From Streptomyces sp. NBC_01142 (GTDB taxonomy: Bacteria; Actinomycetota; Actinomycetes; Streptomycetales; Streptomycetaceae), in assembly GCF_026341125.1 (NCBI RefSeq), contig NZ_JAPEOR010000002.1, positions 1,116,001 through 1,180,000 on the forward strand: a stretch of 64,000 nt of DNA, read 5' to 3'. This document shows, piece after piece, positions 5,366 through 46,418 of this stretch. Made by a program: the position numbers and the translations under genes. Positions within the stretch are counted from its first letter, which is position 1. The number at the start of each line of letters is the position of its first letter. A model generated the notes under the pieces. It saw nothing but the letters and a program-made list of their open reading frames with translations, did not search any database and was not told the origin of the DNA.

Positions 5366-5518
5366 CCACGGGCGGCCTGTCCGGCCCCGACAGGCGGTCC
5401 CGGCGGGGGCGGCCTCGGGCCCGGACAGGCCGGCCTCGGGTCGGTCCGGCAGCCTTGGGCCTGGGCAGGCGGCCTCGGGTCGGACAGGCGGCCTCGGGCC
5501 CGGACAGCGGTCCCGTCA
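5366..5518. repeat. Imperfect GC-rich repeat array between convergent genes
   Basis: Between the response regulator stop and the GNAT stop, degenerate units related to GGCCTCGGGCCCGGACAGGC recur about five times. A 7-bp stem (GCCTGTC at 5375, GACAGGC at 5389) opens the array and probably acts as a terminator. No convincing gene is present in 5310-5515. Confidence 0.5.
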
Positions 5519-6049: not shown

Positions 6050-6129
6050 GGCGCCCATCCTGCCACCCCGGCCGCCGCCCGACTTCGGCGCACTGCGCCG
6101 GATTTGCTCATGGAGTTTTCTACGAATTC

Positions 6130-6168
6130 CCATACGGGCTGAACACCCCATGAGCCACACCCGTATGG
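6130..6168. promoter_or_regulatory. Inverted repeat upstream of the DUF1996 gene
   Basis: CCATACGGG (6130-6138) and CCCGTATGG (6160-6168) are perfect 9-bp arms 21 bp apart, in the divergent region between the GNAT gene and the DUF1996 gene. It could be an operator or an mRNA hairpin 66 bp before the DUF1996 start. Confidence 0.35.
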
Positions 6169-6234
6169 AACGACGCGCTTCTCCCTCTGCCGGGACCCAC
6201 CTAACCCACCCCGGCAACGAAGCAGAGGAGTTCC

Positions 6235-7809
6235 ATGGGACGCACAAGAAAACGCTCGACGCTGGCGAACCGGGCGATAGTTGCCTCGGCCGCATTGATC
6301 CTGGGCGGGGGTGGGCTGGTCGCAGTCAATTCGTATGCATCCGCAGGCGAAGGCTGGTCCTGGCCCGGTCAGCAGAACGAGCAGCAGAACCAGACACAGA
6401 GTGCTGGACAGGTAATGTCCACCATCGACTGCCCCGAGGCCGCGAACGGCCTTCCGGACGTGCCCGAGCAGGCACGTCCGGAAGTCGACCGGGAACTGGC
6501 AACGATGGACAGCCAGATCACCGATGCGTATCAGAAGTTCGCAGACCAGAGGGAGCAGATCGAACAAGATCCCCAACTGGCCCGGAATGCGATTCTCAAT
6601 CCGCTGAAGGACAAGCGGACGGCGAGCATCGATCGCATTTCCGTGGCCATCGGCCGGTCCGGTCAGCAGCCGCAGGGGCTCGATTCCCTCGCGACCTGCA
6701 CCATGCGCGCCGACGACAACGTCAACGCCGACGACGGTGGCAATGACAACGGCGACAATCAGCAGGGCGACGGACAGGGAGACGGACAGGACGGCAACGA
6801 GCAGGGTGACGGTCAAGGTGACGGCCAGGGTGACGGTCAGAACGATGGCCAGAACGAAGGCCAGGATGGCGGTCAGGGCGACGGTCAGGGCGGTGACCAG
6901 GGCAACGGTCAGGGCCAGGCCGGAAACGGCCCCGAAGCCGGCGACTTTGTCGACATTCAGTCCATCCAGCCGAATGTCCAGCAGCCCCAGCAGCAAAACG
7001 GCGGCTCCCAGGGCACCTTCACCACCGAGTGCGGGCAGAACGAGAACGGGCTGTTCAACCCGGACAATGTCATCGTCGCCCCCGGTGTGAGCAACGGCGC
7101 GCACCATATGCACGATTACGTCGGTAACCAGGCCAATGACGCATTCGCCAGTGACGACGATCTCGCAAACGGTGACACCAGCTGCCAGAACCAGGGCGAC
7201 AAGTCCACGTACTACTGGCCCGTCCTGCGCCTGCAGAACGGTCAGGCCGAGAACGACGCGAACGCCGACGGCGGCGGCAACGACCAGAACGTCGGAGAGA
7301 TCCAGACTCCGTCCCAGGTCACGCTGAACTTCGTCGGCAATCCGACGAGCAAGGTCACCGCGATGCCCCGTTTCCTGCGGATCATCACCGGTGACGCCAA
7401 GGCATTCACCAACGGTGACGCGAATGCCAACGCCTCCTGGAGCTGCACCGGTTTCGAGGACCGCCAGCTGAAGGACAAGTACCCGATCTGCCCCGAGGGC
7501 AGCCAGGTGGTGCGCTCGTTCAAGTTCCAGAGCTGCTGGGACGGCCAGAACACCGACAGTGCGAATCACCGCACCCATGTGGCCTTTGCCGACAACAACG
7601 GCAACTGCCAGAACGGTTTCCAGGCGATCCCGCAGCTCGTCCAGCGCATCGTCTATGACGTTCCGCCGGGGCCCGGCTTCGCAGTGGACTCCTTCCCCGA
7701 GCAGCTGCACAAGCCGATCACCGACCATGGCGACTTCATCAACGTCTTCGACGAGAACCTGATGAACCAGGTGGTGAACTGCATCAACACAGGACAGAAG
7801 TGCACGTGA
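6235..7809 (+). CDS. Secreted DUF1996 domain protein with Gln/Gly/Asp-rich linker
   Basis: A 524-residue exported protein. A signal peptide ([20 protein letters not shown] followed by a GGGGL hydrophobic core, cleavage near ASA-GEG) is followed by a short helical region (about 55-160) and a low-complexity linker (about 160-240) of repeated GDGQ/GNGQ units. The DUF1996 domain then runs from about residue 261 to the end. It has the family's His-rich HHMHDYVGN segment, the GDTSC and YYWPVLR motifs and WSCTGFEDR. The ribosome binding site GAGGAG precedes ATG 6235. DUF1996 is common in fungi and actinomycetes and has no firm function; a cell-wall role is only a guess. A strong terminator follows. 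Confidence 0.88.
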
Positions 7810-7823
7810 TCCACTGATCCGAT

Positions 7824-7857
7824 CGGGACGGCCCCCCATGCGTGGGGGGCCGTTCCG
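7824..7857. terminator. Terminator hairpin after the DUF1996 gene
   Basis: CGGGACGGCCCCCC and GGGGGGCCGTTCCG form a nearly perfect stem with a short loop, 15 nt after the TGA of the DUF1996 gene. It lies between convergent genes, so it probably serves both. Confidence 0.75.
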
Positions 7858-7891
7858 ATGCGGGACGGCCCCCCACCCCAGACCTGCGCGG

Positions 7892-8359
7892 TCAGCTCCC
7901 GTGGTGCCCCGAGTGGCCCTCCTCGCTCCCCCCACTGCTGCCACTGTTCCCCGAGTGGTGCTGCGAGCCGGTCTCCACCTCGCCACCGAGCCGGCCGCGC
8001 AGCGCTGTGACCACCTTCGCCTCGCCCACCGCGACCCACTTCCTGCCGACGAGATACGAGCCGCCATAGTCATTGGCCTCGTTTATCCACTCGCGCTGGC
8101 CGCGGTCGGTGGCGAACGTGGCCAGCACATACTTGCCGTCGTCCGTCGTGCAGTTGGCCTGCCGCAGCTCATCCGCATCCGTCTGGATGTTCGGTTTGCA
8201 CTCGACCTTCTTGGCCAGCTGTTCCAGGCTGCCCGTCGCCGTCGCGGGCACCTTGGCGTCGTCGCCACGCCCGTCGCCGTCATCGCCGGACCCGCACGCC
8301 GCCACAAGGGCCAGCGCCAGCACCGCCAGTCCTGCCCGGGCGTTCCGCTTCACACTCAT
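7892..8359 (-). CDS. Small lipoprotein of unknown function
   Basis: A 155-residue protein starting MSVKRNARAGLAVLALALVA followed by the lipobox cysteine (LVAAC-GSG), so it is a predicted lipid-anchored surface protein. The mature part has an acidic linker (GSGDDGDGRGDDAK), then a folded segment with two cysteines (VECKPN and ANCTTDD) and a His/Ser/Gly-rich C-terminus ending GHSGHHGS, which could bind metal. ATG 8359 is preferred to longer options because AAGGACGAG precedes it. I recognise no family with certainty. Confidence 0.75.
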   Translation of the reverse strand: MSVKRNARAGLAVLALALVAACGSGDDGDGRGDDAKVPATATGSLEQLAKKVECKPNIQTDADELRQANCTTDDGKYVLATFATDRGQREWINEANDYGGSYLVGRKWVAVGEAKVVTALRGRLGGEVETGSQHHSGNSGSSGGSEEGHSGHHGS

Positions 8360-8479
8360 GCTCGTCCTTGTACGCATTCGGCCATCGTGCCCTCTCCGCC
8401 CCCTTTCGCGCGGGCGAACGGGGGGTAACCTGCGCTCCGCACGCACCTGTTGTCACGTGAGCAACATGGAGGAGCGCTG

Positions 8480-11400
8480 ATGAAAGACCTGTCGAGACGC
8501 ACATTACTGGGCACCGCGGGCGTGATCGGGGCCGGAGCGGCTCTCGCCGCGCACACTCCCGCAGCCGCCGCCGCACCTCTCGCGGCCCAGCCGGAATCCG
8601 CCGCGACACCCGCCCACGCGGCGCTCCGGCGGCTGCTGCCCCGCCACGCGGATCAGTTCCGCTTGCGGGTGCTGACCGGCCCCGAGCGCTTCCGTGTCAC
8701 CGGCTCCACCGGCCGTATCGAGGTGGCCGGCACCAGCCCCGCCGTACTCCTGACCGGAGTGCACTGGTACCTCAAGTACGTCTGCCGGGCGCACATCTCC
8801 TGGTCGGGCACCCAGCTCGACCTGCCCCACCGGCTGCCCGCCCCCCGCCGCGAGCTCGAGCGGTCGGCGACCGTCCCGCACCGGTTCGCGTACAACGACA
8901 CACACGACGGCTATACCGCCCCCTACGCGGACTGGCCCCGCTGGGAGCACCTCCTGGACGTCCTCGCCCTGCACGGCTGCAACGAGGTGCTGGTCACCCC
9001 CGGCCAGGAAGCCGTCTACCACCGGCTCCTCACGGACTTCGGCTACTCCGACACGGAAGCCCGTACCTGGCTGCCCGCCCCCTCCCACCAGCCGTGGTGG
9101 CTGCTGCAGAACATGAGCGAGTACGGCGGCCCGCTCTCCCCGGAACTCATCGAACGGCGTGCGGACCTCGGCAGACGGATCGCCGACCGGATGCGCGAGC
9201 TCGGTATGCACCCGGTCCTGCCCGGCTACTTCGGGACGGTTCCGGACGGCTTTGCCACCCGCAACCCGGGCGACGCCCGGGTCGTCCCGCAGGGCAGCTG
9301 GAACGGCCTGCGCCGCCCCGACTGGCTGGACCCGCGCACCCGGGCCTTCGCCGACGTCGCAGCGGCCTTCTACCGGCACCAGGGAGAACTGTTCGGTGAG
9401 GTCGGCCACTTCAAGATGGATCTCCTGCACGAGGGCGGCACCGCCGGGGACGTCCCGGTGCCGGATGCCGCCCGCGCCGTAGAAACGTCCCTGCAGACCG
9501 CCCGCCCCGGCGCGACCTGGGTGATCCTCGGCTGGCAGTCCAACCCGCGCCCCGCGCTCCTGGACGCCATCGACACCGACAAGGTGCTGATCGTCGACGG
9601 ACTGTCCGACCTGGACACGGTCACCGACCGGGAGAAGGAGTGGGGCGGGACTCCGTACGCCTTCGGCACCATCCCCAACTTCGGCGGACGGACGACGATC
9701 GGCGCCAACACCGACCGGTGGACCGAGAAGTTCACGGCCTGGCGCGACAGGCCGGGCAGCACGCTGGCCGGCACCGCGTACATGCCGGAGGCCGCCGAGC
9801 GCGACCCCGCCGCGCTCGAGCTGTTCAGCGAGCTCGCCTGGCGCGAGGAGAAGATCGACCGGGACGCGTGGTTCCGTGAGTACGCCGGGGTCCGCTACGG
9901 CGGCGAGGACGGCTCGGCGCGCACCGCCTTCGCCGCGCTGGCCGCGACCGCGTACAAGCTCACCAGCACCGACGGCCGCCCGTACGACTCCCTCTTCTCC
10001 CGCCGCCCGGGCATGACGTCCTCCATCGGCACCGCCTTCGACCCGGCGGGCTTCGACCGGGCCTTTGCCGCACTGCTGGACGTACGCCCGTCGCTGCGCG
10101 ACAGCGACGCCTACCGCCACGATCTGACCGACCTGGCCCGCCAGGCCCTCGCCAACCGCTCACGCACCCTCCAGCTCCCCCTGCGCGCCGCCCATGAGAA
10201 CAAGGACGTGGAGACCTACCGCGCCGTGTCCGCGCTCTGGCTGAAGCTGATGCGGCTGAGCGACACGATGGCCGGCTGCCACCGGCTGTTCCTGCTCGGC
10301 CCGTGGCTGGAGGACGCCAAACGGCTGGCCACCAGCCCTCCGGAGGCGGTGGAGCTGGAGCGCACCGCCCGGGCGCTCGTCACCACATGGGCGGACCGGG
10401 CCGCGGCGGGCCAGCTCAGCAACTACGCCAACCGCGACTGGCAGGGGCTGATGAACGACGTCCATGTGCCGCAGTGGGAGGCGTATCTGGACGAGCAGGC
10501 CGCCGCCCTGGCGGAGGGCCGCGCTCCCAGGTCCTTCGACTGGTATCCGGCAGAGGAGGCGTGGACCAAGGACCGGAGCGCCTATCCGGTCCGGCCGACG
10601 GGGGACGCCTACCGCACGGCCCGGCGTGTGTACGACACCCTGGCACGCGCGCCCTACCAGGGCTCGGCGACAGCCACCGTGGACCCGCCGGCCTTCACCC
10701 CCGGCAGCACCGGGACCGTCACCGCCGCCTTCCGCAACGTCAACGGGCTGCGCTCCACCGGCCGTGTCGACTTCGAGCTGACCGGCCTGGACGCCGAGGC
10801 GCAGGGCCCGACGTTCCTCGAGAGCGTGGCGGCCGGAGGCACCGGCACGGTCTCCTGGCGGGTGACGGCTCCTTCCGGCCCTCCCCCGACCGACGGCCGG
10901 GGTGACCCCCCTCTCGCTTCGCTCGCCGAGCCGCTGCGCGCCATGCCGTACACGCTGCGGACGCAGTACGGCCCACGGGGCGAGGAGCGGGTGGCCGTCA
11001 CCCAGAAGAGCTCGTTCTATCTCGCCTCGCCGCTGAACCCGCAGTGGCGCACCTTCACCAGCAACGCGGCCGTCTTCGGACAGGCCGGCGACCGCTTCGC
11101 GATCAACGGCGCGGGCAGTGACCTGTGGCGCGGCACCACGCACTTCGGCACTGCCTACCGGGAACGCGCGCTGACGCAGGGCGCGAGCGTGGTGGTGCGC
11201 GTGGACTCCCAGGAGAACACCAGCAGTTGGGCACGGTCGGGCATCGTCGTACGCAACAGCCTCGCCACGCCCGGTGACGCCGGGTTCCTCAACCTGGCGA
11301 CCACGCCCGGCCAGGGCATCGTGCTGTCGTACGACACGAACACCGACGGCACTCTGGACACCTACCGGCGCGTCACCGGCATCAGGGCCCCAGTGCTGCT

Positions 11401-34853: not shown

Positions 34854-35173
34854 CCGTCGACTCCCGTCCGTGCCCTGTGCTGTGTGCGCAAGGTTCTGAT
34901 CAAGGTCCGTGCCCGAGCCTAGCCGCAGGTGCCCGTGCGAGACCCCTGTGATCCGCCGCGGTTCCCGGCACCCCTCCAGCTCTGTTCCGGCTCTGTTCCG
35001 GCAGGGTGCCGCGGAACGGGCCGTGGATGACGTGACATTCGCCATGTTGTTCGACCTTTGGCGCCAATGAACCGCATGCTCGATATTTCCGTCTTCACGG
35101 ACGATCGCAGTGATCAACACCGATCAATGCTGGTCAGAACCTTTAACCCCTGAATATCCGAAGGCACTCCAGC
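34854..35173. promoter_or_regulatory. Divergent glnE/PIG-L intergenic region
   Basis: This 320-bp region has no gene. It contains an imperfect inverted repeat (GTTCCCGGCACCC at 34961-34973 against 35004-35017), a direct repeat TCTGTTCCGGC (34981 and 34992), and an unusually AT-rich stretch at 35037-35160. That stretch holds repeated GATCAA elements (35112 and 35123) and probably the PIG-L promoter. Confidence 0.45.
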
Positions 35174-37303
35174 ATGCTGTCGTCCGGGTCCCGCCGCCCT
35201 GCCCTGCTGTCCCGTCGTGGCCTGACGGCGACCCTGATCCTGGCCCCGCTCGTGGGCTTCGCCTACCTGGCCGGTACCGAGAGGGCCAGCTCCGACGCCC
35301 AGGAGGCGCCGATCCAGCCGGCCCGCCCCACGGGCGCGTCCGTGATGCAGATCCTGTCCCACCCGGACGACGACCTTTTCTTCATGAACCCGGACACCAG
35401 CCACTCGGTCGGCTCCGGTCGCAGCATCACCTCGGTGTACCTCACGGCGGGCGAGTCCGACGGCGTCAACGCCGCGAGCAAGGGCCCGCTGGCTCCCCGG
35501 AAGCGGCCCGCCGCGAACCGGGCCCGCTATGCGGAGGCCCGCCAGAACGGCATCCGCGCCGCCTACGCGGAGATGGCCACCGGCTCCCGCACCAGCCCCT
35601 GGCAGCGCACCACGATCCCCACCGCCGGCGGCGGCAGCGCCGAGCTGGACACCCTCAGGGCCCGGCCCGAGGTGAATCTGGTGTGGGTGCAACTGCACGA
35701 GGCGGGCTCCATAGTCGGCGACCGGCCGGACAGCCTGCACGGCCTGTGGGACGGCCGGGTGGAACGCCTCGGCTCGCAGCTCGCCTCCAGTACGCCGGTC
35801 GAAGAGGACTTCACGTACACCAAGGGGCAGGTCGTCGACACGATCGCCGGGCTGCTGGAGCGGTTCGGCCCCACCCACGTCCGGACGCTCGACCCGACGC
35901 CGGGCCGCAATGCCAGGACGGGCAAGCCCTCGGACCACCAGGACCACACGTACGGGGCCCGGTTCGCACAGGCCGCGCTCGCGCAGTACGCCCAGTCGCC
36001 CGGCCGCCCGAGGTTCAGCGTCCAGAACTACATGGGCTACGTCACCGGCGGACTGCCGCACACCCTCGACCCGGCCGGCGCCGAGGCCAAGCTGCGCACC
36101 CTGAAGACGTACGCCTGGCTGGACAACGACAACTACTGCGGCGACAAGGCCGGCTGCGGCGACCGCAAGGTGGCCGCCCGCCCCGCCGGGCACGGCTGGG
36201 CACAGTCCATCCGCTACACCCGCGGCGAGTCCACGTCCTGGCTCCAGCCGGACAGGGACGGCGGGCTCTGGGCGTTCTCGGTGCTCGACAACCGGCTCGC
36301 CGTCTGGCACCGGGAGGCCGGGGCGAAGGGCGAGTGGAGCGGTCCGACACTGCTGGCCGGCACCGGGATCGACAGCGGGGTCAGCTCGGTGAGGCTGCCC
36401 GACGGGCGGATCGCCGTGTTCGCCACCCGTACGACCATCGGCCGCGGCCCCGACGGCTACCGCAGGGACGTCGTCACCGCGGTGCAGCGCACGCCCGACG
36501 GCCTGTTCGGGCCGTGGCGCTCGCTGGGCACCCCCGAGCGCGGTGACGCCTCCGCGTCCTCCGACATCAGCGCTCCGGCAGTGGCCGCGGACAGCGCCGG
36601 CCGGATGACGGTCTATCTGCGCAACGGCCGCCACTCGCTCAGCGCCATCGCCCAGCGGTCGGACGGCTCCTGGGGCCGGTGGAGGGCGCTGGGCGGCCGT
36701 GATCTGCACGGCGACCCGGTCGTCGCGTCGGACGCGACGGGCCGCCGGCAGGTGTTCGCCGGTACGCCGCGATCGGTGCTCACCTGGCACCAGCCGACGC
36801 CGGGCGCGCCGCTGAGCGGCCCGGCCGACACGGGGCTGCCGCCGACCACGCTCGCCCTGAGCGCGGGCACGGACGGCGACGGAATACGGCTCTGGTTCCG
36901 CAAGCCCGACTCGGGCGCGGTCCGCACGGTCCTGTTCACCGATGGGCACGCCTCCCCCCTCCGGGAGCTGGGCGGCCCGGCCGGCTTCGGCCCGGTCAGC
37001 GCCTCGGGCCCGGACAACTCGCTGCTCGCCGCCCGCTCCCGTACCGGCATGCCGGGCACGGCGGTGGTCGCTCCGGGCGCGCCCGGAAGCGCGGGCAGGT
37101 CGGCGCAGACGCCCGGGCCGGTCACCTGGCGGGCGGGCGGTTCGCTGTTCGCCGGTGCGCCCGCGGGCGTACGGACCGGGGCGGGCGCCGGGCAGATCTC
37201 CGCGTCGAGCACCGGGCTGGCCGCCGTGGGCCTGGACGGCCGCCTGTACTGGGCGCAGCCGGACGGCCGCGGTTCCGTCACCGCCTGGCATCCGGTGGGC
37301 TGA
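35174..37303 (+). CDS. Secreted PIG-L-family deacetylase with C-terminal beta-propeller
   Basis: A 709-residue exported protein. A signal/anchor (RRGLTATLILAPLVGFAYLA) is followed by a PIG-L/LmbE domain (about 50-340): MQILSHPDDDLFFMNPD has the zinc ligands His63, Asp66 and the catalytic Asp, and SDHQDHTYGARF the second zinc-binding His cluster near 255-258. Residues 345-709 consist of repeated WxR/VFxxxR...W blades (RMTVYLRNGRHSLSA, GLAAVGLDGRLYWAQ), like fucose-lectin or PQQ-type propellers. PIG-L enzymes de-N-acetylate GlcNAc-containing glycolipids or thiols; secretion with a propeller suggests an extracellular glycan. GAAGG precedes ATG 35174. Confidence 0.85.
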   Translation: MLSSGSRRPALLSRRGLTATLILAPLVGFAYLAGTERASSDAQEAPIQPARPTGASVMQILSHPDDDLFFMNPDTSHSVGSGRSITSVYLTAGESDGVNAASKGPLAPRKRPAANRARYAEARQNGIRAAYAEMATGSRTSPWQRTTIPTAGGGSAELDTLRARPEVNLVWVQLHEAGSIVGDRPDSLHGLWDGRVERLGSQLASSTPVEEDFTYTKGQVVDTIAGLLERFGPTHVRTLDPTPGRNARTGKPSDHQDHTYGARFAQAALAQYAQSPGRPRFSVQNYMGYVTGGLPHTLDPAGAEAKLRTLKTYAWLDNDNYCGDKAGCGDRKVAARPAGHGWAQSIRYTRGESTSWLQPDRDGGLWAFSVLDNRLAVWHREAGAKGEWSGPTLLAGTGIDSGVSSVRLPDGRIAVFATRTTIGRGPDGYRRDVVTAVQRTPDGLFGPWRSLGTPERGDASASSDISAPAVAADSAGRMTVYLRNGRHSLSAIAQRSDGSWGRWRALGGRDLHGDPVVASDATGRRQVFAGTPRSVLTWHQPTPGAPLSGPADTGLPPTTLALSAGTDGDGIRLWFRKPDSGAVRTVLFTDGHASPLRELGGPAGFGPVSASGPDNSLLAARSRTGMPGTAVVAPGAPGSAGRSAQTPGPVTWRAGGSLFAGAPAGVRTGAGAGQISASSTGLAAVGLDGRLYWAQPDGRGSVTAWHPVG

Positions 37304-37375
37304 TCCCGACCGATGAGTACCGGCGCCCGGCGCGGTCAACACATTCGGTGGCCCCGAATGCGAGAGGACCGCGCC

Positions 37376-37948
37376 ATGCCGCAGAACACATCGCAGAACA
37401 CCCCACAGAACAAACCACAGCACAACCCACAGAACAAACCACAGCTCAAACCGTCGGCCGAGCTCGACGCCCGGTACAGCGATGCGAAGGCCGAAGCAGT
37501 CGGCTGGTCCGAGGCGGTCACCCGCCTGGAGGCCGCGAAGGTCTTCTGGCTGTCGACCGTACGACCCGAGGGGCGTCCGCACGTCACCCCGCTGATCGCC
37601 GTCTGGCAGGACGGCGGGCTGCACTTCTGCACCGGCGCCGACGAGCGCAAGGCCAAGAACCTCCGCGACAATCAGGAGGTGATCCTCACCACCGGCGCCG
37701 ACAGCCTGACCGAAGGCTGCGACCTGGTGCTCGAGGGCGAGGCCGTACGAGTGACGGACGGGACGCGGCTGCGCGCCCTCGCCGGCGCGTACGTCGAAAA
37801 GTACGGTCCGGAGTGGACCTTCGACGTCCGCGACGGGGTCTTCGTGGGCGACGGCGGCGAGGCACTGGTTTTCCGGGTGGCCCCGCGCACGGCGTTCGGC
37901 TTCGCCAAGGATCCGTACGGCCAGACCCGCTGGCAGTTCACCCAGTGA
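37376..37948 (+). CDS. Pyridoxamine 5'-phosphate oxidase-family protein
   Basis: A 190-residue FMN/F420-binding split-barrel protein. After a repeat-derived Gln/Asn/Pro N-terminus (QNTSQNTPQNKPQHNPQNKP, from direct repeats of CCACAGAACAAA), the domain starts near WSEAVTRLEAAKVFWLSTVR. It continues GRPHVTPLIAVWQDGGLHF and RKAKNLRDNQEVILTT, the PPOX pattern. Cofactor and substrate are unknown; F420-dependent reductases of this type are common in actinomycetes. GAGAGGA precedes ATG 37376. The VOC gene follows after 14 nt and its ribosome binding site overlaps this stop, so they form an operon. Confidence 0.85.
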   Translation: MPQNTSQNTPQNKPQHNPQNKPQLKPSAELDARYSDAKAEAVGWSEAVTRLEAAKVFWLSTVRPEGRPHVTPLIAVWQDGGLHFCTGADERKAKNLRDNQEVILTTGADSLTEGCDLVLEGEAVRVTDGTRLRALAGAYVEKYGPEWTFDVRDGVFVGDGGEALVFRVAPRTAFGFAKDPYGQTRWQFTQ

Positions 37949-37962
37949 AGGGAACACCATCG

Positions 37963-38394
37963 ATGGAAATGACGCTCGAAGTCGTCTTCCTCCCGGTCAC
38001 GGACCTGGACCGGGCAAAGAAGTTCTACGAGGAAACGTGCGGCTTCAAGGTCGACACCGACACACAGATCACGGATACGGCCCGCATCATCCAGCTGACC
38101 CCGCCCGGCTCCCGCTGCTCGATCGCCTTCGGCAGCGGTCTGCCTCCCGCGCCCGGCCAGAAGGAACCGGAGCCCGGCTCGACCCAGGGCCTCCAGCTGT
38201 GCGTGACGGACATCGAAGCGGCCCACGCCGCCCTCACCGCCCGCGGCCTGAACATCAGCAAGGTCCAGCATCTCGGCGCGACAGGGTGGGAGGACGGGCG
38301 CGGGGAGACCTGGAACGCGTTCATGTACTTCAACGATCCCGACGGCAACGGCTGGGTGGTCCAGGAGGCACCGGCACCGCTCTCCCAACGCTGA
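37963..38394 (+). CDS. VOC/glyoxalase-family protein
   Basis: A 143-residue vicinal-oxygen-chelate protein with the paired beta-alpha-beta-beta-beta modules: MTLEVVFLPVTDLDRAKKFY opens the first and QLCVTDIEAAHAALTARGLN the second, which ends with FNDPDGNGWVVQE as in glyoxalase/bleomycin-resistance-like proteins. The metal ligands of true glyoxalase I are not obvious. AAGGGA overlaps the stop of the PPOX gene, so the two are translationally coupled and may act in one detoxification or redox step (inference). Confidence 0.88.
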   Translation: MEMTLEVVFLPVTDLDRAKKFYEETCGFKVDTDTQITDTARIIQLTPPGSRCSIAFGSGLPPAPGQKEPEPGSTQGLQLCVTDIEAAHAALTARGLNISKVQHLGATGWEDGRGETWNAFMYFNDPDGNGWVVQEAPAPLSQR

Positions 38395-38419
38395 GCACCG
38401 AGTTCTCCCGCACGGGAGT

Positions 38420-38815
38420 TCAGGTGCGCCGAAGCACCAGGGACGTCTGCGGCCGGAAGGAGAAACGCCGGTAGAACGCTGCGTTCTCCGGTTCGGTGGT
38501 GAGCGCGACGTAGCACTCGGGCGAGGCATTCCGCTCCAGCCACAGGCTGAGCCGGTCGACCACTTCGGTGCCGATACCCCGGGACTGGTACGCGGGCAGT
38601 ACGACGACGTCCTGAACATAGAAATAGAGACCGTCACCGATGATCCGCCCCATCCCCACCGCTCGCATTCCGATATCGGCGCAGACGGCATAGCGGGTGG
38701 CACCAAGTGCCGCGGCAACGTATGGCTCTTCAGCGGTGTCCCAGCCGACCGCTGCCCTGATTCCGCGGAATTCCTCAACGGTCGGTGTGCGTTCCGCGTA
38801 CGTCACCGTGTCCAC
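38420..38815 (-). CDS. GNAT-family N-acetyltransferase, small
   Basis: A 131-residue acetyltransferase. The core is IGDGLYFYVQDVVVLPAYQS followed by RGIGTEVVDRLSLWLE, the acetyl-CoA pyrophosphate-binding loop (Q/R-x-x-G-x-G), then NAAFYRRFSFRPQ. The start is a GTG at 38815 with GAGGGG upstream. It converges on the VOC gene and is divergent from the small-peptide/NB-ARC locus, so its promoter shares the 93-bp region 38816-38908. Confidence 0.85.
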   Translation of the reverse strand: MDTVTYAERTPTVEEFRGIRAAVGWDTAEEPYVAAALGATRYAVCADIGMRAVGMGRIIGDGLYFYVQDVVVLPAYQSRGIGTEVVDRLSLWLERNASPECYVALTTEPENAAFYRRFSFRPQTSLVLRRT

Positions 38816-38874
38816 GCGGTACCCCTCGTCCCCCGGGATCTTTTTCCTGCTGGTGGGGCAGCCGGTCGAAAGCC

Positions 38875-38903
38875 TTGGCCGCCGACTCGGCCTGCCCTAG
38901 CAT
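38875..38903 (+). promoter_or_regulatory. Putative promoter for the small-peptide/NB-ARC operon
   Basis: TTGGCC (38875-38880) and TAGCAT (38898-38903) are 17 bp apart. The expected transcription start falls on or next to the A of the ATG at 38909, which would make a leaderless mRNA and explains the absence of a ribosome binding site before that ATG. Confidence 0.45.
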
Positions 38904-38908
38904 GAACT

Positions 38909-39031
38909 ATGGCAGACGTTCTGGACGGGCGGGGGCCTATGGATCCGCTGTCAATATCCTCGATCTTGAGCGCCCTTGTCAGCGGCGTGGACGCCATCAA
39001 CGTGCCGATGCCTGCCCAGGGTGGGAAGTGA
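38909..39031 (+). CDS. 40-residue peptide preceding the NB-ARC/TPR gene
   Basis: A short ORF of 41 codons including the stop. The product begins MADVLDGRGPMDPLSISSIL, continues SALVSGVDAINVPMPA and ends QGGK. The centre is a Ser/hydrophobic stretch that could be a helix. Its TGA overlaps the GTG of the next gene (GTGA, 4 nt), a strong sign that it is translated, and a -35/-10 pair places the transcription start at its ATG. It has no cysteine and no recognised family. It may be a RiPP precursor for the radical SAM enzyme two genes on, a regulatory adaptor of the NB-ARC protein, or only a coupling ORF. Confidence 0.5.
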   Translation: MADVLDGRGPMDPLSISSILSALVSGVDAINVPMPAQGGK

Positions 39032-41172
39032 CCGGGGGCGCCTCCGGCGGTACGCCATCGCCTGCCACCAACGCCCTCGCAGGCAACGCGTCGACCGTCA
39101 TCCAGGCAGGCACCGTCATGGGCGGTGTCCATATGCAGGGGACCGGCGGCTTCGCCCTGCCCCGCCCCCGTCAGGTCCCCATGACCGTATCCCGCTTCGT
39201 CAACAGAGCGAGTGAATTACGGGAGTTGAACGAGTTCGCCAAGGATACGGCTCCCGGCTCCGCCGCCTCCCGCATTCTCGTCATCTGCGGATCACCGGGA
39301 ATCGGCAAGACGGCCCTCGCCATCTGGTGGGCGTGCACGTACAAGGGCGGATTTGCCGACGGCGTGCTCTACGCCGACATGCACGGATACGACTCCGTGA
39401 GCCCGGCGAGGGCCGGTGAAGTCCTCGAATCGTTTCTCCGCGCCCTGGGCGTCTCGGCACACGAACTGCCCACCACTCTCGACCATCAGATCGGCCTCTA
39501 CAGAACGCTCATGGCACATCGGCGCTGCCTGGTACTGATCGACAATGCCGATTCGGCCGAAGCGGTACGCCCCCTGCTCGGAGTGGCCGAGAACCTCACC
39601 CTGATCACCAGCAGAAGCAGGCTGTCGGGATTAGTGGTGCGCGAGGGAGCACAGCGCATGACTCTGGACACTCTGAGCCCGAGCGAGGCATTCGCCCTGC
39701 TCTCGAGAATCATCGGCGGCGAGCGGGTCCAGCACGAACCCGAGGCGGCAGCGGAAATCGCGAGGCTGTGTGCGTATCTCCCGCTCGCCCTGCGTGTCAG
39801 CGCCGAGCGGATCTCCCGGGATCGGCACATGCTGCTGATCCACGCCGTGGAGGAGCTGTCGGCACAGGGGGAGCGGCTGGACGCACTGGCCACCGAGGAC
39901 GACGAGTCGACCGCCGTACGCGCCGTCTTCTCCTGGTCCTACTTCCGCCTCGCGGAGTCGGAAGCCCGGATCTTCCGCACGCTCGGGCTGATGCCCGGCC
40001 GGGACATGGATCTCGACTGCGTGGCAGCCGTGACCGGAAGCAGCCGGCGCGAGGCGCGGCTCGCACTGACCGCGCTCGCCAATCTGCACATGATCGAAGA
40101 GGCTGGACGTCATCGCTACTCCTTCCATGACCTCTTGCGCGCCTACGCCGTCGACCAGGCGGGGATCGAGGATCCTGTGGAAATGCGGCAGCAGACCCTG
40201 TTCAAGATGATCAACTGGTACACCGCTTCGGCCGCGGCGGCGGACCGGTTCATCTCCCCCGGCTTCACCGCACGGCAGCCCACGGACGACACGGATCAGC
40301 CCCGGCGCTCGTTCGTGTCCTTCGACGACGCCCTCGGCTGGTTCGAGACCGAGCGGGCGAACCTCCTCGAAGTGGTCCGCAAGGCCAAGGACGCCGGCCG
40401 GTTCACCGCGGCCGCCGACATCGCGATCTTCATGTGGGGGTACTTCAACACCTCCAAGTACTGGGCCGACTGGATCGCCTGCACGGAGATCGGCACCGAG
40501 GCGGCCCACGCCGGACAGGACGCCGACGCCGAGGCATGGCTGCTGACCAGTCGCGGGACCGCTCTGCGTAATCTGCGCCGTTTCGAGGAGGCGAAGTCGT
40601 GCCACCTGCGCGCCGTCGAGTTGTTCGATCAGGCGGACAGCCCCGTGGGCACCGGGTACGCGCGCCAGAACCTTGCGGTCGTCGCCACCGACGAGCGTGA
40701 CTTCCCCAGCGCGCTCGAGCAGTTCACCCTGGCCCTGTCCGCCTTCCGGCGTGATGCACAGGGACTGCGGGGCCAGGCCGTCGCCCTCAACTCGATGGCC
40801 ATCACCCTGCACGACGTGGAGGACTTCGGCGCGGCGATCGAGCACGCCCAGCAGGCGCTCGAGATCTGCCGCCGGCTCAGCGACCTGCAGGGCGAGGCGT
40901 TCTCGCTGCACAGCCTGGGGCGGACCACGTGCGCTCTCGGGGCGCTGCCGGAGTCCATCGAGTACTACGAGCAGGCCCTCGCCCTGCGCACCAGGGCCAA
41001 GGACCGCCACGGCGAGGCGCTCACCCGCAGCGCGCTCGGCGATGTCCATCGGCAACTGGGCGACGAACCGAGCGCACGAGAGCAATGGCACTGCGCCTTC
41101 GAGATCCTGAGCACTCTGGAGGCTCCGGAGGCGCGGGAGGTACAGCACAAGCTCGACAACGGCACAGCCTGA
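39028..41172 (+). CDS. NLR-like NB-ARC ATPase with TPR repeats and N-terminal amyloid-like motif
   Basis: A 714-residue STAND ATPase from GTG 39028. Residues 15-36 (NALAGNASTVIQAGTVMGGV) match the N-x-G...VIQAG...GGV pattern of RHIM-like signalling motifs described in actinomycete NLR-type proteins (recalled, not searched). The NB-ARC domain follows: FVNRASELREL, Walker A GSPGIGKT (88-95), Walker B RRCLVLIDNAD, sensor LITSRSR, LPLALRVSAERI and a winged-helix part (FSFHDLLRAYAVD-like). At least four TPRs occupy about 480-700, for example SIEYYEQALALRTRAKDRHG. Unlike AfsR there is no N-terminal SARP domain. The upstream peptide overlaps by 4 nt. It resembles the TPR partner of FxSxx-COOH peptide systems. 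Confidence 0.85.
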   Translation: MTGGASGGTPSPATNALAGNASTVIQAGTVMGGVHMQGTGGFALPRPRQVPMTVSRFVNRASELRELNEFAKDTAPGSAASRILVICGSPGIGKTALAIWWACTYKGGFADGVLYADMHGYDSVSPARAGEVLESFLRALGVSAHELPTTLDHQIGLYRTLMAHRRCLVLIDNADSAEAVRPLLGVAENLTLITSRSRLSGLVVREGAQRMTLDTLSPSEAFALLSRIIGGERVQHEPEAAAEIARLCAYLPLALRVSAERISRDRHMLLIHAVEELSAQGERLDALATEDDESTAVRAVFSWSYFRLAESEARIFRTLGLMPGRDMDLDCVAAVTGSSRREARLALTALANLHMIEEAGRHRYSFHDLLRAYAVDQAGIEDPVEMRQQTLFKMINWYTASAAAADRFISPGFTARQPTDDTDQPRRSFVSFDDALGWFETERANLLEVVRKAKDAGRFTAAADIAIFMWGYFNTSKYWADWIACTEIGTEAAHAGQDADAEAWLLTSRGTALRNLRRFEEAKSCHLRAVELFDQADSPVGTGYARQNLAVVATDERDFPSALEQFTLALSAFRRDAQGLRGQAVALNSMAITLHDVEDFGAAIEHAQQALEICRRLSDLQGEAFSLHSLGRTTCALGALPESIEYYEQALALRTRAKDRHGEALTRSALGDVHRQLGDEPSAREQWHCAFEILSTLEAPEAREVQHKLDNGTA

Positions 41173-41229
41173 TCATTCTCCGGATGCCACGCCGCCACCT
41201 CCCTCGCGGGGGTGAGACAGGAGCAGGAA

Positions 41230-42375
41230 GTGAAACCTGTACTCCGTGCCGAGCAGGTAAGCCACGCCGTCGCGGCGCTTCTCAGGCCGGAGGAGGTGAC
41301 GGGCGCTCGACTGCCGGCCGACGAGGCGGCCGGGCAGCTCGACCGGTGGCGGAGCCGACTGCCCCCGGCCTCCTTGTCACTGCCCGGCGGCGGGATGGAC
41401 AACTGCCCCGCAGCCTGCAGCCGGCCCGAAGCCGCGGACACCGGCTTCGAGATCTGGCTGGAGCTGGTCGAAGAGTGCAATCTCGACTGCCTGTTCTGCT
41501 ACAATCCCTGGCGCGGGAGGTCCACTCCCGCTGATGGTGCGGCCCGCACCCTCCCGCTGCAGCGCACAGTGGAGGTGCTCGGCATCATCTGCGACACGGT
41601 GAGCGTCAGCCATCTCACCGTCTCCGGCGGCGAGCCGCTGATGTATCCGGATCTGCCGTCGCTGGTGTCGCGGATCTCCCCCGCCATCCCCTCCATCGGC
41701 ATCACGACCAACGGGCGCAGCGGCACGCGCACGAGGCTGGAGGCGCTCAAGAGCTCGGGAGTGGGCCGGCTCAGTGTCCCCGTGCACTCCCACAGTCCGC
41801 TGACGCACGACCACCTGGCGAACGGCCGCTCCTGGCACGCGGCGGTCCGCTGTCTGGCGCTGGCTCAGGAGACGGGCTACCAGACGACCATGAGTGCCGT
41901 GGTGACCGGCACCAACGGGACCCATGTACCCCGGGTGGCGGAGATCGCGCTGCTGCTCGGCATCCCCCGGCTCGTACTCAACTGCTTCCACAGCACCGGG
42001 CAGGGGCTTGCGCACGATCGCAGGTTGGCGCTGCCCGCAGGGCGCTTCGGCGACATCGTACGAGACATCAGGGACACCTTCGGCGACCGGCTGGAGATCA
42101 CGGTGGGCTCTCCGGAGGAACACGCCGCTTCCGACGCGCCGATGGCTCCCGCTCAGGGCGGGGTGAGCCGGGTGAGCCGTCTGGTGCTGTCGCCCCAGGG
42201 GGAGATCAAGTTCTGCAACCAGTCGGAGACCGGCCTGCTCAACGTGCTCGAATGCGGGGACTCGAGGCTGCGTGCCCTCCTCGATGAGCTGGCGGCGGGC
42301 CAGTACGACAGGGCGCTCGCGTCGATCGACAACTGCACCTGTCGCGCGGCTCCAGTAGTATCGAAGGCCGTTTGA
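41230..42375 (+). CDS. Radical SAM protein with SPASM-like C-terminal cysteines
   Basis: A 381-residue radical SAM enzyme. The SAM-binding cluster motif is CNLDCLFC (Cys83, Cys87, Cys90; CX3CX2C), followed by LTVSGGEPLMYPDL (GGE motif) and SIGITTNGR. The C-terminus has four more cysteines: Cys329 (EIKFCNQSE), Cys342 (LECGDS) and Cys369/371 (DNCTCRA), fitting a shortened SPASM/Twitch region that binds an auxiliary cluster, as in peptide-modifying enzymes. An N-terminal extension of about 70 residues precedes the barrel. GTG 41230 has AGGAG six bases upstream; GTG 41212 is an alternative. It lies 57 nt after the NB-ARC gene, so probably one operon. Substrate unknown; the 40-residue peptide is the local candidate. 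Confidence 0.85.
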   Translation: MKPVLRAEQVSHAVAALLRPEEVTGARLPADEAAGQLDRWRSRLPPASLSLPGGGMDNCPAACSRPEAADTGFEIWLELVEECNLDCLFCYNPWRGRSTPADGAARTLPLQRTVEVLGIICDTVSVSHLTVSGGEPLMYPDLPSLVSRISPAIPSIGITTNGRSGTRTRLEALKSSGVGRLSVPVHSHSPLTHDHLANGRSWHAAVRCLALAQETGYQTTMSAVVTGTNGTHVPRVAEIALLLGIPRLVLNCFHSTGQGLAHDRRLALPAGRFGDIVRDIRDTFGDRLEITVGSPEEHAASDAPMAPAQGGVSRVSRLVLSPQGEIKFCNQSETGLLNVLECGDSRLRALLDELAAGQYDRALASIDNCTCRAAPVVSKAV

Positions 42376-42378
42376 ATC

Positions 42379-42425
42379 GTGAACCGGGTTGCGGTGCGTC
42401 GACATGACCTCACTGACGAGGAGTT
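42379..42425 (+). pseudogene. Possible 5' remnant of an IS5-type transposase gene
   Basis: GTG 42379 encodes NRVAVRRHDLTDEELAF, which resembles the start of IS5-family transposases (typically VRRHDLTDEEW...). After about 16 codons the similarity ends. It lies directly after the radical SAM stop, in the 104-bp spacer before the next cassette. Too short for certainty. Confidence 0.25.
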
Positions 42426-42479
42426 GGCATTCCCTGGCGGCCAGGTGGCAGGGGGCCGGTCACGCACGAAGGGGGAAGT

Positions 42480-42947
42480 GTGTCGTTCGAGGCCGAGTGG
42501 GCTCAGCTCAAGGTCAACGCCCAGGCTCAGCAGTCCACAAGCATGCAGCTCAATCAGGTACCGGCCGACCCAGGTGGCGGATCGGGCCCTGCAGGCGGCG
42601 CGCCGGGAGCGAACGGGACACTTCACGCCAACGCCACATCCATCAACGGAAGTTCGCACCTGCTGATCGAGATCGCGGGATTTCTCCACGAGGGCAGGCC
42701 GGACGGCGACTTGTGCACCATGGCCAGGAAACCCAGAGCGCACGCTGATGTCGCCGCACAGGTCGATCGTTTCGCTCGCTTCGCCGATGACCAGTTCCTC
42801 GACACGGTTGCCTTCTTCGCGGCCCTTGCCACGAACCTCAAGTCCGCGGGAAACGACGTCGTGACGGTCGATGACGCCAACGCACGGAGGTTCCTGGAAA
42901 GCGTTCTTCAGTACGGCGAGTACGTCGCTCCGGAGGCGAAGAAGTGA
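42480..42947 (+). CDS. Small ESX/type VII-associated protein
   Basis: A 155-residue protein from GTG 42480, preceded by GAAGGGGGAA. It opens MSFEAEWAQLKVNAQAQQST and then has a Gly/Pro/Ala-rich spacer followed by an all-helical segment (ISISGSSHLLIEI-like, HADVAAQVDRFARFADDQFL). The opening resembles Streptomyces WXG100-associated proteins that sit beside ESX substrates; a WXG motif itself is not visible. Its stop overlaps the start of the next gene (GTGA), so the two are coupled and may form a complex or a chaperone/effector pair (inference). Confidence 0.65.
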   Translation: MSFEAEWAQLKVNAQAQQSTSMQLNQVPADPGGGSGPAGGAPGANGTLHANATSINGSSHLLIEIAGFLHEGRPDGDLCTMARKPRAHADVAAQVDRFARFADDQFLDTVAFFAALATNLKSAGNDVVTVDDANARRFLESVLQYGEYVAPEAKK

Positions 42948-44335
42948 GCGAGCTGAGCCACCGGAAGGACGTCGAGTTCCTCGAGGACTGCAATCCTGCG
43001 CTCGTCGAACGGAACGCGGATGAGTTCAAGCGGATCCGCGACATGCTGGTGGAGGTCGAGCAGCCCGCCAAACGGGCGGAGACGCGTACGGAATGGCACA
43101 GCGAGGGAAGTAAGCACTACGAAGCCCGAGTCGGCGAGGCCCACGATCTTCTGGTGAATCTCGCCGAGGGTTACAACAAGGCCAGTAGTGCACTGCGCAG
43201 TTACTCCTACGCACTCGTGACCGCCAAACGTCACTACTCCGACGGAAAGACGTCCGAGAGGTCGCTGGCCACCCTGATCGCCACCAAGGGCACCGCGATC
43301 ACCCGCGAGGCGCAGGACGCGGAACCCATGCGTCAGTGGGAGGACATGAGAGGAACCACGGGAGTCCTCGACTGGCTCGCAGAATCCACGATGGACATCG
43401 ACGACATCAAGGAGGAGGCGAACCGGCTGCACGACGATGCCGGCAGCGACTTCCACCTGGCCAAAACCACGGAGAAGGAAGCGCGCGACACCTGCGTCCG
43501 CGGCCTCAAGGAGGCCTACGACCTGCTGCCCGAGTTCCGCCTGGGATTCATCGAGCGCGTCGACATCCACGAGGCCATCGCCGCCATGCAGCGAGAGGCC
43601 ACAGAGGCTCGGGGCAACCCGCTCACTCGGCTGCCCGGCAGCGGCCCGAAGCAGGACTTCGACGCCCGCGTCGGGGACACCGCCGTTTCGCCTGCGCTCC
43701 GCAACATCCGGATGCAGGTGGCCGGCCTTCCGGCGGCGAAGGACAACTACTGGGATCCGCCGTCGTCGGACCAGGAGCGGGCGGAGTGGATCGCGGCGAA
43801 CAAGGAGATCATCCAGGCCGCGGCGAAGAACTCGGGCCTGCCCGCGGACATGGTCGCGGGGATAGCCTGGTCGGAGATCGCCGGCCAGCCCGGATACTCG
43901 GACGACATCGTCGACACGATCCGCGAGCAGGCCGATGCCCCATGGGGGCTGAGTCCCATCGCGCCGGAGAACCTCCCCTCGCGTCTCGGCGGAAAGCCCG
44001 ACGAAACGTCCTTCGGCCCGATCGCGATTCAGATACGGCGCGGTGCCGAAGTTCTCGGCTACGATCCGGAGAATCTCACCACGGCGCAACGGTCGGTCGT
44101 GGAGGAATCCCTTCAGGACCCGGCGCAGAACATCTTCATCGCCTCCGAGTACTTGGCGCAGCTGAAGGCCGAGAGTGAGTTCGCGAAGGTTCCGGCGGAA
44201 CAGATGACACCCGATCAGTACAAGGAACTGGCGGCCCGTTACAACGGTGGACCGTACTGGGCAGGGCCGGACGCCCAGCGATACGGCGAGAGGTTCGGCG
44301 GTCACCTCCCGCACGCAAGGGATGCGCTGGGATGA
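42944..44335 (+). CDS. Helical protein with C-terminal lytic transglycosylase-like domain
   Basis: A 463-residue protein from GTG 42944. Residues 1-200 are charged and helical, resembling long WXG/LXG-type regions of type VII substrates (VERNADEFKRIRDMLVEVEQ, YALVTAKRHYSDGK). No Sec signal peptide is present. About residue 285 on resembles lysozyme-like transglycosylases: AAAKNSGLPADMVAGIAWSE gives the likely catalytic Glu near 311, SFGPIAIQI, NIFIASEYLAQL, and ARYNGGPYWAGPDAQRYGER matches the terminal NGG...Y...Y pattern. It may cut peptidoglycan, as an export-associated hydrolase or as a toxin effector. It overlaps both neighbours by 4 nt. Confidence 0.75.
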   Translation: MSELSHRKDVEFLEDCNPALVERNADEFKRIRDMLVEVEQPAKRAETRTEWHSEGSKHYEARVGEAHDLLVNLAEGYNKASSALRSYSYALVTAKRHYSDGKTSERSLATLIATKGTAITREAQDAEPMRQWEDMRGTTGVLDWLAESTMDIDDIKEEANRLHDDAGSDFHLAKTTEKEARDTCVRGLKEAYDLLPEFRLGFIERVDIHEAIAAMQREATEARGNPLTRLPGSGPKQDFDARVGDTAVSPALRNIRMQVAGLPAAKDNYWDPPSSDQERAEWIAANKEIIQAAAKNSGLPADMVAGIAWSEIAGQPGYSDDIVDTIREQADAPWGLSPIAPENLPSRLGGKPDETSFGPIAIQIRRGAEVLGYDPENLTTAQRSVVEESLQDPAQNIFIASEYLAQLKAESEFAKVPAEQMTPDQYKELAARYNGGPYWAGPDAQRYGERFGGHLPHARDALG

Positions 44336-44652
44336 TCGACCACTCCGAAACCGAGCAGACCGACGACCGTGGCTGCCTGCGCTGGGTCGTGGGCATCCCT
44401 CTCGTGATCCTCTACGTGCTCGCGGCCGGCCTCTGCTACACCGCGCTGACCATCCGCCCCACGGGACCCTGGGACGATGGCGCCTACGCCGGAATCATCT
44501 CCTCGTGCCTCCTCGCCATCGCCGTCAGCACCGTCGCGCTGCTCATCACGGTCGTCCCGTCGTCCGTGAGGCTCGCGATGGGCCGATGGTGGCTCGCCCC
44601 GCCCCTGATCCTGGCTGCGGTTGCCACGCTCCGCTGGATCTTCGTCCCCTGA
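44332..44652 (+). CDS. Small three-TM membrane protein
   Basis: A 106-residue protein whose ATG overlaps the stop of the transglycosylase-like gene (ATGA). A short acidic N-terminus is followed by three hydrophobic segments: VVGIPLVILYVLAAGLCY, IISSCLLAIAVSTVALLITV and WWLAPPLILAAVATLRWIF. No family is recognised. As the last gene of the three-gene cassette it could protect the producer against the transglycosylase (immunity-like) or anchor the complex; both are inference. It ends 15 nt before the convergent SDR gene. Confidence 0.75.
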   Translation: MIDHSETEQTDDRGCLRWVVGIPLVILYVLAAGLCYTALTIRPTGPWDDGAYAGIISSCLLAIAVSTVALLITVVPSSVRLAMGRWWLAPPLILAAVATLRWIFVP

Positions 44653-44667
44653 CGAGCTCGTGAGCGC

Positions 44668-45429
44668 TCAGCTCACCCGCTCGGCCAGAAAGTCCTCCCA
44701 GGTCCGCTTGCCCACAGCGGTCCCCTCGAAGGACAGGTTCTCGCCTGCCCGGTACGCACGGCCGGCCTTTCCGGGCATGCGGACCGGCATCATCAGCCGG
44801 CGCTTGCCGCGCACCTTCAGGTATGCGCGGCTCAGATCGGCCATCCCGTACACCTTCGGCCCGGCAAGGTCGGGCACCAGGCCGGCCGGCTCGCCGAGCG
44901 TCAGTTCCACGAGCCGGGCCGCCACCTCACGCGCATCGACGGGCTGGAACCGGAGTCCACCGGGGACCGGTATCACCGGCAGCTTCGCCATCGTCTGCAC
45001 CACGTTCAGGGCCAGGTCATGGAACTGGGCGGCGCGCAGTGTGGTCCAGGGCAGGCCGGAGTCGGCGATGGCCCGCTCGGCGCCGAGCTTGGACGTGAAC
45101 CAGCCGAGGGGGACGGTGTCCGCCCCGATGGCCGAGATGTACACCAGGTGCCGCACCCCTGCTCGCGACGCGGCCCGCACCAGGTTCCGGGTCGCCTCGT
45201 CATCGCCCTTGGGGCCACCCGCGAGGTGCAAGACGATGTCGACCCCGTCCACCGCGGCCTCGATCCCCTCGCCCTTGAGCAAGTCACCGGCCACGTACTC
45301 GATGCCGTCCGCGGACTCACGGCTGTGCCGGCTGAGGACCCGCACGTCGCGGCCGGCCGCCCGCAGCAGGGGGACGATGTGTCCCCCCAGCGTGCCCGTG
45401 CCGCCGGTGACCAGGATGGGAGACGTCAT
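44668..45429 (-). CDS. SDR-family NAD(P)-binding oxidoreductase (NmrA/atypical SDR)
   Basis: A 253-residue atypical SDR. It starts MTSPILVTGGTGTLGGHIVP with the GGTGTLGG dinucleotide loop, then VRVLSRHSRE (Arg typical for NADP), DIVLHLAGGP, HLVYISAIGAD and LPWTTLRAAQFHDL, the NmrA-like pattern lacking a strict YxxxK. It is divergent from an ECF41 sigma factor gene; ECF41 genes are typically paired with carboxymuconolactone decarboxylase, oxidoreductase or epimerase genes, so this is the likely target. GGAG precedes ATG 45429. Confidence 0.9.
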   Translation of the reverse strand: MTSPILVTGGTGTLGGHIVPLLRAAGRDVRVLSRHSRESADGIEYVAGDLLKGEGIEAAVDGVDIVLHLAGGPKGDDEATRNLVRAASRAGVRHLVYISAIGADTVPLGWFTSKLGAERAIADSGLPWTTLRAAQFHDLALNVVQTMAKLPVIPVPGGLRFQPVDAREVAARLVELTLGEPAGLVPDLAGPKVYGMADLSRAYLKVRGKRRLMMPVRMPGKAGRAYRAGENLSFEGTAVGKRTWEDFLAERVS

Positions 45430-45504
45430 GGCTACTCCGAAACTCGTACGGTCCGGGAGTCGGCCTCCCGGTACCTTCAGCGGGGTTTGTGGATCTACTG
45501 CTAT

Positions 45505-45531
45505 GACCCCCGGCGACGAAGGAATGTGACA
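45505..45531 (-). promoter_or_regulatory. Putative ECF41-type promoter for the SDR gene
   Basis: Read on the minus strand, TGTCACA (45531-45525), 16 bp, then GGTC (45508-45505) matches the ECF41 consensus TGTCACA-N16-CGTC except for one base. It points at the SDR gene and overlaps the ribosome binding region of the sigma gene. Confidence 0.5.
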
Positions 45532-45533
45532 CG

Positions 45534-46418
45534 GTGGACGAACGCGCAGGACTGGCAGAGCGGTTCGAGGAACATCGACCCCATCTGCGAGCGGTGGCGT
45601 ACCGGATGCTCGGCTCGGTGAGTGAGGCCGATGACGCCGTTCAGGACGCCTGGATACGACTCAGTCGCGCCGACACCGCCGGCGTGGAGAACCTCGGTGG
45701 ATGGCTGACAACAGTGGTGGCGCGCGTGTGCCTGAACATGCTGCGCTCGCGCGAGCATCGGCGCGAGGAGCCTCTCGAGGTGTATGTGCCCGACCCGATC
45801 ATCAGCCCCGAGTCCGGGGCCGACCCCGAGCAGGAAATGCTGCTGGCCGACTCGGTCGGGCTGGCGCTGCTGGTGGTGCTCGAGACGCTTTCGCCGGCCG
45901 AGCGGCTTGCCTTCGTGCTGCACGACATGTTCGCCGTGCCCTTCGACGAGATCGCCCCGATGATCGAGCGGTCCCCGGCTGCGACGAGGCAACTCGCGAG
46001 CCGCGCACGCCGCCGCGTGCAGGGACAGGCTCCGGCTCCCGAACCTGATCTCACGCGCCAGCGTGAGGTCGTCGACGCCTTCTTCGCCGCCGCTCGCGAC
46101 GGCGACTTCGACGGGCTCGTCGCTGTGCTGGACCCCGACGTCGTGCTGCGGTCCGACGGTGGGCTCGCGCGCCCGCGCCAGACGGTGGTGATCTCCGGCG
46201 CACGGACCGTGGCCGGGCAGGCGATCACCTTCGGACAGCTCTCCCCGTTCGCACGGCCGGCACTGATCAACGGAGCCGCCGGAGTCGTGGTCGCCGCCGA
46301 CGGACGACCGTTGTCCGTCATGGGCTTCACCGTCGCAGACGGGAAGATCCTCGCCATCGACGTGCTGGCTGATCCCGAACGGCTGCACAAGCTCGACCTC
46401 ACGGTCCTCGACCACTGA
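45534..46418 (+). CDS. ECF41-family RNA polymerase sigma factor (SigJ type)
   Basis: A 294-residue ECF sigma factor with a fused C-terminal SnoaL-like domain. Region 2 is FEEHRPHLRAVAYRMLGSVS followed by EADDAVQDAWIRLSRAD; region 4 is LSPAERLAFVLHDMFAVPFD and SPAATRQLASRARRRVQ. The C-terminal domain (about 175-290, VVDAFFAAARDGDFDGLVAV) is the ECF41 extension that modulates activity in place of a separate anti-sigma. GTG 45534 has AAGGAA upstream. It is divergent from the SDR gene. The signal is unknown. Confidence 0.93.
   Translation: MDERAGLAERFEEHRPHLRAVAYRMLGSVSEADDAVQDAWIRLSRADTAGVENLGGWLTTVVARVCLNMLRSREHRREEPLEVYVPDPIISPESGADPEQEMLLADSVGLALLVVLETLSPAERLAFVLHDMFAVPFDEIAPMIERSPAATRQLASRARRRVQGQAPAPEPDLTRQREVVDAFFAAARDGDFDGLVAVLDPDVVLRSDGGLARPRQTVVISGARTVAGQAITFGQLSPFARPALINGAAGVVVAADGRPLSVMGFTVADGKILAIDVLADPERLHKLDLTVLDH

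Follow-up and report, generated by a model that had tools for sequence, protein, structure and literature searches.

A gene pair of Streptomyces joining an NB-ARC/TPR protein to a rare radical-SAM enzyme

The locus and its gene pair

The window analysed here, 64,000 nucleotides from the 10.1-Mb genome of Streptomyces sp. NBC_01142 (G000:C2:1116001-1180000; positions below count from its first letter), contains on its plus strand a 40-codon open reading frame (ORF), a gene for a protein with an NB-ARC domain and tetratricopeptide repeats (TPR), and a gene for a radical S-adenosylmethionine (SAM) enzyme. The short ORF (P0001, 38909..39031; an alternative start at 38939 leaves 30 codons) has no Pfam match and shares 4 nt, GTGA, with the frame of the 714-residue NB-ARC/TPR protein, which starts with GTG and occupies 39028..41172. 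For the radical-SAM gene, the longest ORF runs from 41212 to 42375 (387 residues), and 41230 is the likelier start because the database copy (P0009) has 381 residues; the enzyme is thus placed at 41230..42375, and with this start the gap to the NB-ARC/TPR gene is 57 nt. The overlap, the gap and the CX3CX2C motif of the enzyme (CNLDCLFC, 41476..41499, cysteines present in 27/27 family rows) are all as the original prediction had described them.

As far as could be read, the conserved unit is the pair of NB-ARC/TPR and radical-SAM genes, not the peptide. Enzyme contexts were read in the window and at two S. specialis loci; in all three, an NB-ARC/TPR gene lies directly upstream on the same strand. 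At the first S. specialis locus (L039) it occupies 5488-7926 and is followed by the enzyme gene at 7974-9038, and at the second (L040, minus strand) the corresponding positions are 8111-10258 and 6980-8098. The three NB-ARC partners are mutual best hits and form one clade among 33 rows of a quick tree (SH-aLRT 100), where row L101, an ORF taken in the wrong frame, has a long branch. None of 29 further loci with NB-ARC genes, each read over 4.2-5.1 kb with about 1 kb of flank, held the enzyme, and the same queries recovered both S. specialis copies. The association on which the original description turned is upheld as far as it could be read, in 3/3 contexts and in a single clade of partners; its peptide half found no support at the two S. 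specialis loci. A literature search at the level of listings found no paper describing an NB-ARC/TPR and radical-SAM pair of this family. A transposase-like ORF pair follows the S. specialis pair at L039 (9307-10637) and, by eye, hints at mobility.

Upstream, the locus is bordered by a divergent GNAT gene (38420-38815) and, further out, by a glyoxalase-like ORF and glnE. Downstream, at 42480-44652 on the plus strand, lies a three-gene unit also present in other Streptomyces (P0004, P0005 and P0006, of 155, 463 and 106 residues), whose middle member has a weak, sub-threshold Pfam match to transglycosylases. P0005 was matched in 14 of 100 searched genomes, our own included (E<=1e-20), which leaves 13 others; in the five of these that were fetched the trio was kept together, and no NB-ARC, enzyme or GNAT match was found beside it in the 15.7-19.9 kb taken from each. 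Since the trio occurs elsewhere without the pair, we rejected it as part of the module and treat it as a separate unit. A promoter and terminator scan of 38700-42600 found no sigma-70 promoter-like site on the plus strand; one minus-strand promoter-like site in the short-ORF region and one terminator-like site within the NB-ARC gene were both at about shuffle level.

The two proteins and their families

The NB-ARC/TPR protein matches Pfam NB-ARC (35 bits, cut-off 23.5) and TPR_12 (88 bits). Its P-loop is intact (Walker A, GSPGIGKT) and an HD motif (FHDLLRAY) is present, features by which it is predicted to be a STAND NTPase. The N-termini of the three partners differ: the L039 protein carries a helix-turn-helix domain (HTH_31, 43 bits, cut-off 27), and the window and L040 proteins share a VIQAGTVMGGV-like motif, located at 39097..39129 in the window, whose pattern also matched 5/30 other NB-ARC rows. 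This may be a bacterial amyloid-signalling motif of the kind treated in PMC8086366, PMC7889193 and PMC7885112; the BASS3 example printed in PMC8086366 differs from it by eye. A literature search with the letters of the motif found no paper. Among sister NB-ARC/TPR proteins, five (L106, L107, L110, L112 and L122) have a common N-terminal VVQAxxVxGGVHFH-like motif, and their genes are preceded by a related gene of about 200-250 codons with an S/G-WKLER or SWKFER motif.

The best NCBIfam match of the window protein is AfsR, with 325 bits where the cut-off is 1430. This match and the HTH_31 domain of the L039 partner favour an ordinary regulator-enzyme pair, in which an AfsR-like NB-ARC/TPR transcription regulator would control a neighbouring small-molecule enzyme. 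Pfam finds no DNA-binding domain in the window protein or in the L040 partner, however, and in none of the three ORFs after the window enzyme was a biosynthetic family recognised (those after the S. specialis enzymes lay outside the family-library search). We regard such a pair as unlikely, and the low score led us to reject membership of AfsR itself.

The radical-SAM enzyme matches PF04055 with 80.8 bits. Its relatives were compared in two alignments, of 15 rows (A1) and 27 rows (A2), from which its own database copy and a 310-residue fragment (P0017) were omitted. All four of the C-terminal cysteines noted in the original prediction are present (C335, C348, C375 and C377, numbered from 41212), but they are not equally conserved: C335 and C375 are kept in 27/27 rows and C377 in 26/27, whereas C348 occurs in the window protein only. 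The family is further marked by a CYNPWR motif and a terminal NCxC motif. The WR motif and C65, the latter kept in 21/27 rows (21 of the 22 with a residue at that column), lie in an N-terminal extension without a Pfam match (41230..41436), which a confident structure model shows as two helices, with no strand before residue 79. Neither Pfam nor the model reveals a peptide-recognition domain (the RiPP recognition element, RRE, or PqqD-like domain, RiPPs being ribosomally synthesised and post-translationally modified peptides). By fold the nearest protein is SkfB, with MoaA, SuiB, BlsE and viperin close behind, and profile comparison of the sequence ranks PqqE (96 bits) and SkfB (78 bits) first. 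As in SkfB, a radical-SAM core is joined to a C-terminal region suited to an auxiliary cluster, here the candidate Twitch-like segment with the conserved C335, C375 and C377 (42214..42342). Our best reading is that the enzyme is a Twitch-type radical-SAM protein with a candidate auxiliary-cluster region at its C-terminus. It differs from the SkfB-type and other Twitch/SPASM maturases of RiPPs in sharing only 17-20% identity with them and in having the two-helix extension in place of the peptide-recognition domain.

This radical-SAM family is apparently undescribed, and it is rare. In a set of about 5.8 billion proteins, with only about 8000 candidates scored in each search, an alignment query retrieved 28 members including our own copy (E<=1e-40) and a single query 16 (E<=1e-20), these limits and those of the genome samples being our choice. 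Named members come from Streptomyces (xiamenensis, griseoloalbus, specialis and tubercidicus), Amycolatopsis, Crossiella, Micromonospora and a metagenome-assembled genome of Pseudonocardiaceae, and the closest, from S. xiamenensis, is 50% identical. Across overlapping genome samples, the enzyme was found in 2/392 Streptomyces (our own and S. specialis, E<=1e-50), in 1/394 genomes of a class sample (our own), in 1/248 genomes related to S. specialis (S. specialis only) and in 1/392 Streptomyces genomes of completeness 100 (our own, E<=1e-40). When 150 Streptomyces genomes were searched with the single query, 148 gave a match at E<=0.001, and two stood out (again our own and S. specialis, E<=1e-72) from general radical-SAM proteins, whose matches reached 1e-16 at best. 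A search of genome contigs returned general radical-SAM relatives only.

The nearness of viperin in fold bears on a defence-like module, in which the NB-ARC/TPR protein would detect infection and the enzyme would make a toxic or antiviral small molecule in the manner of viperin. The enzyme reaches 40.4 bits with the viperin equivalog, whose cut-off is 180, on which ground we rejected membership of that family (pVip), and its better matches lie elsewhere, with PqqE and SkfB by profile and with SkfB, MoaA, SuiB and BlsE by fold. Its family also has extra conserved C-terminal cysteines, which viperin is not known to have. No relative was found in phages or viral contigs, and the plasmid matches (15 records, 25-29% identity, none spanning 80% of the enzyme) are general radical-SAM ones. 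PADLOC, run on P0001 to P0005 only, reported pVip and TPR matches and no known system beyond these. A defence module of this kind seems to us improbable.

The 40-codon reading frame

The P0001 peptide ends in QGGK and lacks FxSxx, just as was first noted, and it contains no Cys, Phe, Trp, Tyr or His. The original prediction had taken it for a possible substrate of modification, but several lines of evidence tell against this. Among 5000 dinucleotide shuffles of the 213 nt upstream, 1139 (23%) left an ORF of 40 codons or more running to its stop, so that its length by itself is within chance. Its codon score, 0.06 per codon, is the best of the four frames compared there, three forward and one reverse (the others range from -0.42 to -0.85), and is nonetheless ambiguous, since true frames fall below this value in 8% of 40-codon windows and wrong frames exceed it in 16%. 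A protein database search gave no candidate relative, although short ORFs are often left unannotated. Conservation of the short ORF in related loci, a check suggested at the outset, was not seen: nothing similar is present at the two loci of S. specialis, a single species. There, scores against P0001 were computed for five short ORFs close to the NB-ARC starts (42 to 313 of 500 shuffles did as well), and the remaining upstream ones were compared by eye.

With tblastn, P0001 gave weak matches in 39/150 Streptomyces genomes (E<=0.1, our own included; best other 5e-4). Of 29 other loci read, 20 contained one recurring frame, GEGPMKPMSI and close variants, and nine had the match inside other, longer ORFs, and we therefore rejected these matches as support for the peptide. 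The recurring open frame, GEGPMKPMSI..ALSASISEGPALNV, present in 20 of loci L071-L099 from many Streptomyces genomes and weakly resembling P0001, looks to be antisense to a conserved gene, and its likeness to P0001 is probably due to chance. The idea that P0001 is a remnant of the gene found upstream of sister NB-ARC proteins was likewise rejected: 7 of 8 sister loci yielded a row for comparison, and between 27 and 293 of 300 shuffles scored equally high.

PMC7159879 describes peptide-processing systems to which an AP-ATPase/TPR protein is coupled, the FxSxx type among them having a radical-SAM/SPASM enzyme, and the present locus resembles the actinobacterial FxSxx-COOH/FxsB loci in having a radical-SAM enzyme with an NB-ARC/TPR protein nearby. 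The likeness drawn in the original prediction did not survive closer comparison. No ORF of 25-119 residues ending in FxSxx occurs in window positions 35001-46000. A search of the same genome with the FxsB model (TIGR04269, E<=0.001) matched C2:504927-506006 at 588 bits (cut-off 370) and C2:613187-613540 at 30.5 bits, and not the window enzyme. With no FxSxx peptide, an enzyme that is not FxsB and a true pair elsewhere in the genome, membership of the FxSxx-COOH group was rejected. The genuine pair (L160, G000:C2:498000-514000, minus strand) has a 54-residue ORF ending STFNSAL just upstream of FxsB (a 762-residue ORF); it was found by the same scan and served as its working positive control. 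No zincin-like metallopeptidase was seen among 14 neighbouring ORFs scanned, some others lying outside the scan.

FxSxx, cyclophane and sactipeptide chemistries require residues (Cys, Phe or other aromatics) that P0001 does not contain. Cyclophane formation in HaaA/HaaT systems acts on an aromatic residue in the precursor; the window NB-ARC/TPR protein does align with HaaT (NF041717) over residues 48-694, but at 292 bits against a cut-off of 1125, and with no Phe, Trp, Tyr or His in P0001 we rejected membership. Sactipeptide maturases of the SkfB type use a cysteine in the precursor, which P0001 lacks, and carry an N-terminal RRE (PqqD-like) domain. Radical-SAM epimerisation, by contrast, needs neither Cys nor aromatics, and a RiPP locus could be envisaged in which P0001 is the precursor on which the enzyme acts, perhaps as an epimerase, and the NB-ARC/TPR protein has a regulatory or sensing role. 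The position and GTGA overlap of P0001, its leading codon score and the SkfB-like fold of the enzyme are consistent with this, as is the company that NB-ARC/TPR proteins keep with radical-SAM peptide systems (PMC7159879 and the NCBIfam description of HaaT). In addition to the chance-level length, the overlapping codon scores and the want of relatives, the enzyme has no visible peptide-recognition domain, and Pfam finds no transporter or peptidase among the 14 neighbourhood ORFs scanned, a set that includes several without any Pfam family. We consider a RiPP locus very doubtful. P0001 may be translated, yet nothing marks it as a conserved substrate, and it is most likely either a translational-coupling leader or spurious rather than a conserved precursor.

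Readings of the pair

We tentatively propose, giving it somewhat less than an even chance, that the two larger genes form a module whose output is a dedicated Twitch-type radical-SAM enzyme, under the control of a STAND NTPase that carries TPRs at its C-terminus. The basis of the proposal is the gene order, spacing and common ancestry seen in three loci, together with the P-loop, the SAM-cluster motif, the C-terminal cysteines and the structure model. The NB-ARC/TPR protein would sense a cue and, when bound to nucleoside triphosphate (NTP), would control the enzyme encoded just downstream, probably through direct action on this protein and not just at the level of transcription; the helical extension at the enzyme's N-terminus may dock on the NB-ARC protein. 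We slightly favour a peptide or protein over a nucleotide as the presumed substrate, in view of the match to SkfB and of the precedents set by the FxSxx and Haa systems.

Several points weigh against this proposal. Chief among them is the sample, three contexts from two species, with two of the three from S. specialis. Contact between the NB-ARC protein and the enzyme, and control by NTP, are putative, and the HTH domain on the L039 partner would suit a plain transcription regulator equally well. Nor can the substrate be read from the fold matches, given that PqqE and SkfB lead by profile and SkfB, MoaA, SuiB, BlsE and viperin by fold.

A bolder version, which we think unlikely, is a stand-alone NLR-radical-SAM effector pair, in which the STAND protein, as an immune-type switch, would directly gate an enzyme of a new Twitch-type family with no peptide precursor; if true, NTP-driven assembly would activate radical chemistry that targets a host or phage molecule. 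The rare family marked by CYNPWR and the terminal NCxC represents radical chemistry without an assignment. Radical-SAM enzymes beside NB-ARC/TPR proteins have been interpreted as peptide-maturation systems, as for FxSxx; since the present pair persists and no conserved peptide was found, the real partner of the enzyme may be the NB-ARC protein.
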